Assembly: GCA_943789305.1 (NCBI GenBank)
Contig: CALSTP010000001.1
Coordinates: 1,443,178-1,507,177 of the forward strand
Length of the DNA: 64,000 bases
Direction: 5' to 3'
Origin: an uncultured Flavobacteriaceae bacterium
GTDB lineage: Bacteria > Bacteroidota > Bacteroidia > Flavobacteriales > Flavobacteriaceae
Shown here: positions 11,567 to 58,409 of the stretch, piece after piece
Layout: each line of letters begins with the position of its first letter
Position numbering within the stretch: the stretch's first letter is position 1
Translations under genes and position numbers: made by a program
Notes under the pieces: generated by a model
What the model was told of the DNA's origin: nothing
The model's input: only the letters and a program-made list of their open reading frames with translations
Databases searched by the model: none

Positions 11567-11608
11567 ATGAAATTTTTTATAAGTACAATAGCATGGTGGA
11601 ACGAATAA
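11567..11608 (+). CDS. trpL: trp operon leader peptide MKFFISTIAWWNE
   Basis: Short ORF with tandem TGG TGG, between promoter-like element and terminator, upstream of trpE. Confidence 0.75.
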   Translation: MKFFISTIAWWNE

Positions 11609-11641: not shown

Positions 11642-11675
11642 AAAAAAAGGCTTGTCATCACGACAAGCCTTTTTT
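11642..11675 (+). terminator. trp attenuator terminator
   Basis: AAAAAAGGCTTGTC-ATCAC-GACAAGCCTTTTTT, 12 nt before trpE ATG. Confidence 0.85.
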
Positions 11676-11687
11676 AATTTTAGTATT

Positions 11688-54298: not shown

Positions 54299-55381
54299 TT
54301 ATCCATTTACGACTTCCTCTTGATGGTTGATTGATTCTTGATGGATTGCTTTAAAAATCTTTAAAATAAATTCTTCTGACAAACCTCGGTCTTTTCCTTC
54401 TAAAATCATTTTACCTAAAATTTCGTTCCATCGTTTATTTTGTAAAACCGCAACATTCTTAGATTTCTTTAACAAACCTATTTCTTCTGCAACTAGCATA
54501 CGTTTTCCCAAAGTATCGAGTATGGTCTGATCAGCAATGTCAATTTGAGTACGAAGATTATTCAAGGCAGTATTATAAGCCTCTTCTTGATCACTTTCTT
54601 TTCGGATTTTGAGATCTTTCATAATTTGAATTAATCTTGTAGGTGTAACTTGTTGAGCAGCATCACTCCAAGCATTATCTGGATCCCAATGTGACTCTAC
54701 CATCAAACCGTCAAAATTTAAATCTAAAGCGGTTTGACAAATATCAAAAATTAAATCTCGTCTCCCAGCGATATGAGAAGGATCACATATCAAAGGAAGA
54801 TCTGTAAATTTATTTTGTGCCTCCACAGCAATCTGCCACTCAGGATTGTTTCGATATTTTGTCTTTTCATAAGACGAAAAACCTCTATGTATCAAACCTA
54901 ATTTTTTGATGTTAGCAGTATACAAACGCTCTACTCCACCAAGCCATAGTGCCAAGTCAGGGTTAACAGGGTTTTTTACCAATACAATTTTATCGGTTCC
55001 TTCAAGGGCGTCTGCAATTTCTTGCATAATAAAGGGGCTCACAGTTGATCGAGCACCAATCCACAAAATATCAATACCGTGTTCGATTGCTAATTTTACA
55101 TGATCTTTATTTGCTACTTCGGTAGCTGTAAGTAAACCGGTTTCCTCTTTGGCTTTTTGTAACCACTTCAACCCAATTGCTCCTACCCCTTCAAACATTC
55201 CTGGTCGGGTTCTTGGTTTCCATATTCCTGCACGAAGAACTGTGACGTCAGAATCTTTTAGCTCATGAGCAATTTTCAACACTTGTTCTTCTGTCTCTGC
55301 ACTACAAGGCCCACCAATTACAAGTGGGTGAGAAAGACCGAAGTCATTAAGCCATTCTCTCATCTGAGATTTATTTTCCAT
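54299..55381 (-). CDS. Bifunctional DAHP synthase/chorismate mutase
   Basis: VIGGPCSAETEEQVL, AGIWKPRTRPGMFEGVG, C-terminal AroQ-like LRTQIDIADQTILDTLGKRM. Confidence 0.93.
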   Translation of the reverse strand: MENKSQMREWLNDFGLSHPLVIGGPCSAETEEQVLKIAHELKDSDVTVLRAGIWKPRTRPGMFEGVGAIGLKWLQKAKEETGLLTATEVANKDHVKLAIEHGIDILWIGARSTVSPFIMQEIADALEGTDKIVLVKNPVNPDLALWLGGVERLYTANIKKLGLIHRGFSSYEKTKYRNNPEWQIAVEAQNKFTDLPLICDPSHIAGRRDLIFDICQTALDLNFDGLMVESHWDPDNAWSDAAQQVTPTRLIQIMKDLKIRKESDQEEAYNTALNNLRTQIDIADQTILDTLGKRMLVAEEIGLLKKSKNVAVLQNKRWNEILGKMILEGKDRGLSEEFILKIFKAIHQESINHQEEVVNG

Positions 55382-55392
55382 TTTATTTTGTT

Positions 55393-56247
55393 TTATTTTT
55401 TATTAATTCCATTTAATATTGATGTTAATTGATTGGTATTTTTCATTTCCTGAAACAAACTTTTATAATCGTCATTTACTAACAATTTTTTAAAGTGTTC
55501 TAAGTTTTTTATGTACGCGTCCAAAATCTCGATCACGTTCTCTTTATTTTGTTCAAAAATGGGAGTCCACATTTCAGGAGAGCTTTTAGCTAAACGAACT
55601 GTTGATTCAAATCCACTTCCAGCGAGGTCAAAGATATTATTCTCATCTTCTTCTTTCTCAAGAACCGTTTTTCCTAACATAAAAGAACTGATGTGTGATA
55701 AATGAGACACATAGGCCATGTGTTTATCGTGTTCTGCGGCTTCCATAAAGCGCAAATACATTCCCATCTCTCTAAAAGTTCGTTTAGCCCAGGTAAGTAA
55801 ATCAGGACGTGTTTTATTAGACTCACATAAAATCTGAGGTTTCCCATTAAACAAATCCCTATGTGCTGCTTGTGGTCCAGAAAACTCATTACCAGCAATG
55901 GGATGCGCAGCTAAAAACTGATCTCTTTTAGAATGGTTCGCTATTAATTCACACAATTGTTCTTTTGTAGACCCAACATCCCAGAGCAAAGCATGGGAGT
56001 GTAACTGATCTAAAAGCTTTGGCAATAATGCTAAGGATTCCTTTACCGGAATACTCAAAATAACTCGATCGGCTTCTGCAACATTGTCTAAAGTACCAAT
56101 GCGATCAATGATACCCAATTCTAGAGCTTGATTAGCGTGTTTTTTATTGGCATCAATTCCAACAACTTCAATTCCTTCAATTATAGTTTTGAGATCCATA
56201 GCCATGGATCCCCCTATCAAACCAATTCCAATGATATAAATCTTCAT
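55393..56247 (-). CDS. tyrA: Prephenate dehydrogenase
   Basis: IGIGLIGGSMAMDL, DVGSTKEQL, AAHPIAGNEFSGPQAA. Confidence 0.93.
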   Translation of the reverse strand: MKIYIIGIGLIGGSMAMDLKTIIEGIEVVGIDANKKHANQALELGIIDRIGTLDNVAEADRVILSIPVKESLALLPKLLDQLHSHALLWDVGSTKEQLCELIANHSKRDQFLAAHPIAGNEFSGPQAAHRDLFNGKPQILCESNKTRPDLLTWAKRTFREMGMYLRFMEAAEHDKHMAYVSHLSHISSFMLGKTVLEKEEDENNIFDLAGSGFESTVRLAKSSPEMWTPIFEQNKENVIEILDAYIKNLEHFKKLLVNDDYKSLFQEMKNTNQLTSILNGINKK

Positions 56248-57398
56248 GGCTCTAATCGATTAATTGCTGTTTCAATATCTTCAAGTTTTACACAAAGTGA
56301 AAACCGAACATACCCCTCTCCCCGAGTACCAAAAATAGTTCCTGGAGCTATAAAAATATTCTGCCTCGTCAGGACATCTTCAATAAAAGATTCTGAGCTC
56401 AAGGAAGAGTCATTAAGTTTAGCCCACAAAAACATTCCAACACTTTTTGAATCAACGGTGGTATTCATAAGAGTTGCCAACTCAATCATAGCTTTTCTTC
56501 GTTCTGCATACACAATATTGAGTTCATCAAACCAATTTGAGTTTAATTGTAAAGCGGCTATTGCTCCTTTTTGAACTCCATAAAACATACCTGAATCCAT
56601 ATTACTTTTCACCTTCAAAACTGCATTGATGTGCTCCGAATTTCCACAAAGCATTCCTACCCTCCAACCTGCAAGGTTATAAGCTTTGCTCAAAGAATTT
56701 AGCTCTAAAGCAACTTCCATAGCTTGGGGTTGGCTTAGTAAACTTCGAGGGGAATCATTTAGGATAAAACTATATGGATTATCATTGATTAATAATATAT
56801 TGTTTTTCTTAGCCCAAATAATTAAACGTGAAAAAGTGTCTAGATTAACTTGAGCCCCAGTAGGCATATTAGGATAATTTAGCCACATTAACTTTACTCG
56901 GCTTAGATCAAGTTGCTCCAGAGATTCAAAATCTGGCTGCCAGTTATTCTTTTCTTTAAGGTCATAAAAAACAGGTTCGGCCTCTAGCAATTTTGTAACA
57001 GAGCTGTAAGTGGGATATCCAGGATTTGGAATTAACACCTGATCTCCTTTATTCAAAAAGGCCATTGATATATGCATAATTCCTTCTTTGGAGCCCATTA
57101 AAGGGAGTATTTCATTGCTTGGGTTTAACGAGACGTTGTAATTATTTTTATAAAATGTTGCTATTTGTTCTCTCAACTCGGGAAGTCCTTGGTAACTTTG
57201 ATACATATGGGCTTTGGGATCTGACAGACTATCCTCCAAAGCTTCAAGCACAGACGGATGAGGTTTTAAGTCAGGACTTCCAACACCCATATTAAGAATC
57301 GGTTTTCCCGCTTTAACCAAAGCAGCAACCTCTCTAAGTTTTTTAGAAAAGTAATATTCCTTCACGCTGCTTAAACGATTTGCTGTTGTTGTGCTCAT
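56244..57398 (-). CDS. PLP-dependent aminotransferase of aromatic operon
   Basis: MGVGSPDLKPHPSV, LNYPNMPTGAQ, NSLSKAYNLAGWRVGM. Confidence 0.9.
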   Translation of the reverse strand: MSTTTANRLSSVKEYYFSKKLREVAALVKAGKPILNMGVGSPDLKPHPSVLEALEDSLSDPKAHMYQSYQGLPELREQIATFYKNNYNVSLNPSNEILPLMGSKEGIMHISMAFLNKGDQVLIPNPGYPTYSSVTKLLEAEPVFYDLKEKNNWQPDFESLEQLDLSRVKLMWLNYPNMPTGAQVNLDTFSRLIIWAKKNNILLINDNPYSFILNDSPRSLLSQPQAMEVALELNSLSKAYNLAGWRVGMLCGNSEHINAVLKVKSNMDSGMFYGVQKGAIAALQLNSNWFDELNIVYAERRKAMIELATLMNTTVDSKSVGMFLWAKLNDSSLSSESFIEDVLTRQNIFIAPGTIFGTRGEGYVRFSLCVKLEDIETAINRLEP

Positions 57399-58222
57399 AT
57401 TTTATTATTCTGATATTCTCCAAGAATTTTATGTTCAGTTGCCATGATTTGAATGATGGACCATGCTTTTTGATAAGTATCAAAAGAATCAAAAGTCACA
57501 TCTACAAAAAAAGCATATTTACCAGGTGTTTCGATTACGGGAAGTGATTGTATTTTGGTAAGGTTGAGTTGACAATCACTCATTACATTGAGCACTGCAG
57601 CAAGGCTACCCCGTTGGTGATCCAATACAAATTTCAATGAGGCTTTATTGATCTTGTTTTGATCAACTAAATCTCCCTTTTGTTGAATAATTACAAAACG
57701 GGTTACATTATTTTTGATGGTTTGAATCGATTCAGAGAAAATCTCCAAATTAAAAATTTCTGCAGCTTTGATACTGGCAACTGCTCCAATTCCAAGAAGT
57801 TGCTCCTCTTGAATCTTACGTGCAATGTCTGCTGTATCTTCAGCCTCAACTAAACGTATGTGTGGATGTTTTGAAAAAAAAGCCTTACACTGGAGTAATG
57901 CCATTGGATGAGAATGAACTTCTTTTAAATCTTCAATAGATTGCCCAACCAATCCCATTAAGTTGTGATGAATACTCAAATACGATTCACCTACTATTTG
58001 TAAGTCATGATGATCCAATAAAGCATAATTGGGTATGATTGATCCAGCAATTGAGTTTTCAATGGCCATTACAGCTTGAGTAGCTCTTCCCGAAACTAAT
58101 TCAACAGCCAACGAATCAAAAGTTAAACACTCCAATACCTTAACGCCAATAGGGAAGTAATTCATTGCCACTTGATAGTGAAAAGAACCTCGTATTCCTT
58201 GTATGGCAATTGTTGATTGCAT
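57395..58222 (-). CDS. pheA: Prephenate dehydratase
   Basis: IAIQGIRGSFHYQVA, MAIENSIAGSI, C-terminal ACT domain. Confidence 0.93.
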   Translation of the reverse strand: MQSTIAIQGIRGSFHYQVAMNYFPIGVKVLECLTFDSLAVELVSGRATQAVMAIENSIAGSIIPNYALLDHHDLQIVGESYLSIHHNLMGLVGQSIEDLKEVHSHPMALLQCKAFFSKHPHIRLVEAEDTADIARKIQEEQLLGIGAVASIKAAEIFNLEIFSESIQTIKNNVTRFVIIQQKGDLVDQNKINKASLKFVLDHQRGSLAAVLNVMSDCQLNLTKIQSLPVIETPGKYAFFVDVTFDSFDTYQKAWSIIQIMATEHKILGEYQNNKI

Positions 58223-58235
58223 TATTATTGTTTGT

Positions 58236-58266
58236 AAAAAAAAAGTCCCGATTAAATCAGGACTTT
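58236..58266 (-). terminator. Attenuator terminator upstream of pheA
   Basis: Minus strand AAAGTCCTGATTTAATCGGGACTTTTTTTTT, 14 nt before pheA ATG. Confidence 0.85.
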
Positions 58267-58298
58267 CGTGGTTATTTATTTTAAAATACTACAATGCC

Positions 58299-58361
58299 CT
58301 ATTTTTTATCCAAAAAATAGAAGTTAAAAAATCGATTGTAATATGTTGTTGTAATATTCAT
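58299..58361 (-). CDS. Phe/Tyr-rich leader peptide MNITTTYYNRFFNFYFLDKK
   Basis: 20-aa ORF, 5 Phe... region with YY, FF and FYF, between promoter and terminator of pheA operon; not in ORF track. Confidence 0.75.
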   Translation of the reverse strand: MNITTTYYNRFFNFYFLDKK

Positions 58362-58378
58362 TTCAGTTTTACTTAGTA

Positions 58379-58409
58379 CAAATGTACATTCCAGATTGAG
58401 AAAAACAAA
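58379..58409 (-). promoter_or_regulatory. Bacteroidota promoter TTTG-N19-TACATTTG
   Basis: Minus strand -33 TTTG and -7 TAnnTTTG with 19-nt spacer, 17 nt upstream of leader ATG. Confidence 0.7.

Follow-up and report, generated by a model that had tools for sequence, protein, structure and literature searches.

A probable ribosome-mediated attenuator with Phe and Tyr codons ahead of the pheA operon of a flavobacterium

The window analyzed here, a stretch of 64,000 nucleotides from an uncultured Flavobacteriaceae bacterium, carries an operon that holds both the Phe and the Tyr branch of aromatic amino acid synthesis. The genes of this operon are pheA, a class I/II aminotransferase gene, tyrA and a DAHP synthase/chorismate mutase fusion (Table 1). 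These identities, given in a preliminary description of the DNA, are backed by Pfam and NCBIfam matches. The gene order is the same in 78 of 80 named loci, and the remaining two loci are cut by contig ends.

The preliminary description read the segment ahead of pheA as a leader-peptide attenuator, and the parts it named are all present where it placed them. The promoter TTTG-N19-TACATTTG is found on the minus strand, followed 17 nt past TACATTTG by the ATG of a 20-codon ORF. As claimed, that ORF has Tyr and Phe codons, which make up 7 of the 20. The terminator with its nine-T tract is also there, with a stem of 12 bp (58267-58241) and the T run at 58244-58236; the spacing from the T run to the pheA ATG is 13 nt, not the 14 first given. 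Since the neighboring gene on the other side is divergent (58493, + strand), the terminator acts only on the pheA leader transcript.

Table 1. Coordinates of the leader region and the operon behind it, as positions in the window.
Feature	Position	Strand	Basis or remark
Promoter: -33 TTTG (58409-58406), 19 nt, -7 TACATTTG (58386-58379)	58379..58409	-	Read in sequence
Leader ORF, 20 codons, MNITTTYYNRFFNFYFLDKK*	58299..58361	-	Sequence, frame test and relatives
Region 1, Tyr codons AUAUUACAAUC	58334..58344	-	Pairs with region 2 absent a ribosome; minimum-energy fold
Region 2	58286..58301	-	Overlaps leader stop codon; duplex and covariation tests
Region 2, antiterminator strand UAGGGCAUUGU	58291..58301	-	
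Region 2, part pairing with region 1	58286..58297	-	
Region 3, ACGAAAGUCCUG	58258..58269	-	Terminator 5' arm and antiterminator partner
Intrinsic terminator, GAAAGUCCUGAU-UUA-AUCGGGACUUUU and U run	58236..58267	-	Folding; kept in 19/19 genus members
pheA, prephenate dehydratase, monofunctional, weak ACT match	57395..58222	-	Pfam PDT 3.5e-52
Class I/II aminotransferase	56244..57398	-	Pfam Aminotran_1_2
tyrA, prephenate dehydrogenase	55393..56247	-	Pfam PDH_N/PDH_C; NCBIfam PRK08507 above cut-off
DAHP synthase/chorismate mutase fusion	54299..55381	-	Pfam DAHP_synth_1 and CM_2

We interpret these parts as a ribosome-mediated transcription attenuator sensing charged tRNA-Phe and tRNA-Tyr together, a reading to which the sequence comparison leads us to assign a probability of roughly 0.93. 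A short ORF, conserved in frame and predicted to be translated, lies between the promoter and the first gene and is rich in end-product codons; a terminator stands ahead of the first structural gene; and an antiterminator, predicted to be freed by stalling, competes for the 5' arm of that terminator. RNA polymerase would start just past the -7 box, followed by a ribosome that translates the leader. With Phe and Tyr in ample supply, this ribosome would reach the stop codon and cover region 2, the terminator (3:4) would form, and transcription would end ahead of pheA. When either is short, the ribosome would stall on the Phe/Tyr run and leave region 2 free to pair with the emerging region 3, and transcription would read into pheA, the aminotransferase gene, tyrA and the DAHP synthase/chorismate mutase gene.

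To gauge how easily such an arrangement could arise by chance, we screened the window and, as a control, 827 kb of flavobacterial DNA around pheA in 80 named genomes. The window holds 527 small ORFs, 12 of them aromatic-rich; of these 12, only the pheA leader is followed by a terminator. In the control DNA, 6573 small ORFs were put through the combined aromatic and terminator filter; 63 pass, every one of them located upstream of pheA. Against shuffled sequence, the 115-nt segment 58350-58236 folds with a z of -5.1, and none of 200 shuffles was as good.

Conservation in relatives had been proposed as the check on the attenuation reading, and it lends that reading support: leader ORF, aromatic codons and terminator are all kept family-wide. 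Of the rows from the genus, 19/19 have an aromatic-rich ORF followed by a terminator ahead of pheA, as do 79/83 rows from other family members, the latter including a few genomes counted twice. The same is true of 78 of 79 named genomes, the sole exception being Gelidibacter L089, where the leader sits further upstream. The closest named records are Candidatus Arcticimaribacter MAGs. The promoter pattern TTTG-N15..22-TAnnTTTG is found in 19/19 genus members, compared with 0.45% of shuffled sequences, and the window promoter fits the TAnnTTTG reported as the sigma-A -7 box of Flavobacterium psychrophilum (PMC9723704).

The preliminary description had found no convincing antiterminator. Comparison locates one in the end of the leader ORF, where region 2 pairs with the terminator 5' arm (region 3) and changes together with it. 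In relatives, typical leader ends such as AGG-ACT-TTG-TAG or AAC-GAG-GCG-TTG-TAT-GTA-TAA are complementary to the terminator 5' arm, and the matched region 2/3 pairs include AGGACT/AGTCCT, CGAGAC/GTCTCG, CGGGAC/GTCCCG, AGGATT/AATCCT, CCGGGT/ACCCGG and many others. Because region 3 hardly varies within the genus and covariation there is uninformative, the test drew on arms from the whole family; the two regions co-change over no fewer than 37 distinct arm sequences. Region 2 pairs with its own arm at -11.9 kcal/mol, compared with -8.3 (sd 0.21) for permuted arms, a contrast that kinship inflates somewhat. It survives sampling one sequence for each of the 37 distinct arms (own -12.4 versus permuted -9.0 kcal/mol; 0/5000 permutations reached the own value). 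The window's own antiterminator is among the weakest, at -8.2 kcal/mol, and its pairing is imperfect, with a mismatch. When a ribosome is modeled as stalled on an aromatic codon, regions 2 and 3 are predicted to pair with a mean probability of 0.90; one placed at the stop codon occludes 98% of region 2. The protector helix 1:2, expected to favor termination when the leader is not translated, is part of the minimum-energy structure predicted for the window; its strength varies between species, many of which have a weak helix or none, and mean pairing in the ribosome-free fold is 0.30. A small ATTTTTT-GGAT-AAAAAAT hairpin noted earlier at the leader end does exist, but it was rejected as the antiterminator and is probably incidental, because it is confined to the closest relatives.

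The leaders of relatives are mostly 22-27 codons long and stop inside region 2. In the nearest relative, the peptide extends further, with ...DKNRAL* running into the antiterminator strand. The window has a run of six A residues at 58307-58302 (minus strand) where that relative has five, which makes the window leader three codons shorter, and the end of the 20-aa form is peculiar to the window sequence. This early stop may reflect either a real indel or a homopolymer error. Short forms also occur in L017 and in several Flavobacterium and Winogradskyella, so the short form of the window may be real. Its stop lies directly ahead of region 2, and in the model a terminating ribosome would still cover that region.

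The codons of the leader suggest what it would sense. Each of the 149 clean family leaders has no fewer than two Phe and two Tyr codons; Trp codons also occur in 70 of them, none from the window's genus. Phe and Tyr replace each other at the same places in the leader, and the non-aromatic residues drift. It would be sensible for an operon that includes DAHP synthase, the common first step, to respond to the aromatic pool.

A terminator upstream of pheA could be put to use in other ways. It might belong to a riboswitch or T-box, that is, an element binding a ligand or a tRNA, with the small ORF a by-product of T-rich DNA. The DNA is indeed T-rich, and a lone terminator in a 5' UTR would fit. 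However, Rfam covariance models of leader, T-box and riboswitch families found nothing relevant, either with E allowed up to 1 or at gathering thresholds, and at this locus no family matched even with E as high as 1. The aromatic run is also a property of one frame only, the aromatic fraction being 0.395 in the leader frame versus 0.13 and 0.18 in the other two, and it persists in relatives whose leader regions are GC-rich. Moreover, the leader nearly fills the space from promoter to terminator. We therefore consider a ligand- or tRNA-binding element very improbable.

We give just as little credence to a real attenuator in which a trans-acting RNA-binding protein, rather than ribosome stalling, selects the structure. 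Such a protein could also set the alternative 1:2, 2:3 and 3:4 structures, but it leaves unexplained the conserved Phe/Tyr codons, the free exchange of F and Y, and the position of the stop codon at region 2. Least probable of all is a constitutive partial terminator that merely fixes the level of expression. The terminator is strong and near-invariant in the genus, as that explanation would have it, yet region 2 covaries with the terminator arm while playing no part in the terminator, which speaks for an alternative structure.

Ribosome-mediated attenuation as favored here is a textbook mechanism, of which the pheA leader is a further case. In the enterobacterial pheL-pheA attenuator, a Phe-rich leader peptide is followed by a terminator ahead of pheA, with an alternative antiterminator. 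The flavobacterial element likewise has a leader containing Phe, a terminator before pheA and an alternative antiterminator. Unlike pheL, its leader holds Phe and Tyr, and in many relatives Trp as well, and would control both branches along with DAHP synthase; the promoter is flavobacterial, region 2 is usually inside the end of the leader ORF, and there is no Rfam match. The enterobacterial thrL and ilvL are single leaders with codons for several end products of their operon. The present leader resembles them in that respect and differs in pathway and phylum, and homology is not claimed.

A transcriptome study of F. psychrophilum (PMC9723704) already describes a structured 5' element ahead of pheA that is conserved among other genera of the Flavobacteriaceae, and mentions leader-peptide attenuation for amino acid operons in general. 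It is very probably the same element. The main text of that study does not give the leader sequence, antiterminator, covariation or wider distribution of the pheA element. The main text of Naville and Gautheret 2010 (PMC2965389) makes no mention of Bacteroidetes or pheA. The Bacteroid-trp motif RF01692 is a cis-regulatory RNA in Bacteroidetes tied to trp genes by name (PMC2864571); in the Rfam scan, it matched neither the pheA leader nor the trp leader of the window.

The comparison makes classic ribosome-mediated attenuation the likely means by which aromatic amino acid synthesis is controlled across a large and little-studied group with promoters and translation starts unlike those of model bacteria. 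An attenuator of this kind implies that translation closely trails RNA polymerase in these bacteria. The comparison supplies an exact antiterminator for mutation, and the exchange of Phe, Tyr and Trp between species amounts to a natural experiment on the choice of amino acid pools monitored by an operon. We lean, with some reserve, towards a broader view in which a pooled aromatic attenuator extends across Flavobacteriaceae and much of Bacteroidia, with freely exchanging Phe, Tyr and optional Trp codons, an antiterminator strand encoded in the last codons of the leader, and one family with two complete leader-terminator modules in series before pheA.

His and Trp leaders built in the same way are found in this genome and, together with the covarying antiterminator, support attenuation at pheA. 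The Trp leader, MKFFISTIAWWNE*, is at 11567-11608 of the window (+ strand), with a terminator at about 11642-11676, ahead of a trpE-like gene; it had no Rfam match at the gathering threshold. A Trp leader ending ...WWNE* and its terminator are conserved in the genus. The His leader, MQQILIHNHHHFTNSNEL, lies with a terminator upstream of hisG at 1006984 (L217, G000:C1) and is conserved in most genus members. At ilvD, neither a leader nor a terminator was recognized, by eye or by script.

Outside the family, aromatic leaders occur in most of the class members sampled. Beyond the class, a crude screen of 20 further genomes found none, and none was found in L213-L216. Four other-class genomes (L068, L070, L074 and L204) have both an aromatic leader and a PheA unusually similar to the flavobacterial one, a combination that suggests transfer of the operon together with its attenuator. 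In one family of Bacteroidia (f9), 5 of 21 loci have two aromatic leaders in tandem upstream of pheA (L260, L264, L265/L201, L266/L202 and L277), in GC-rich leader regions. Each of the tandem leaders is followed by a terminator; both were detected by script in four loci, and in L265/L201 one of them, the first, was recognized by eye. As judged from sequence, these loci are two putative attenuators in series upstream of pheA.
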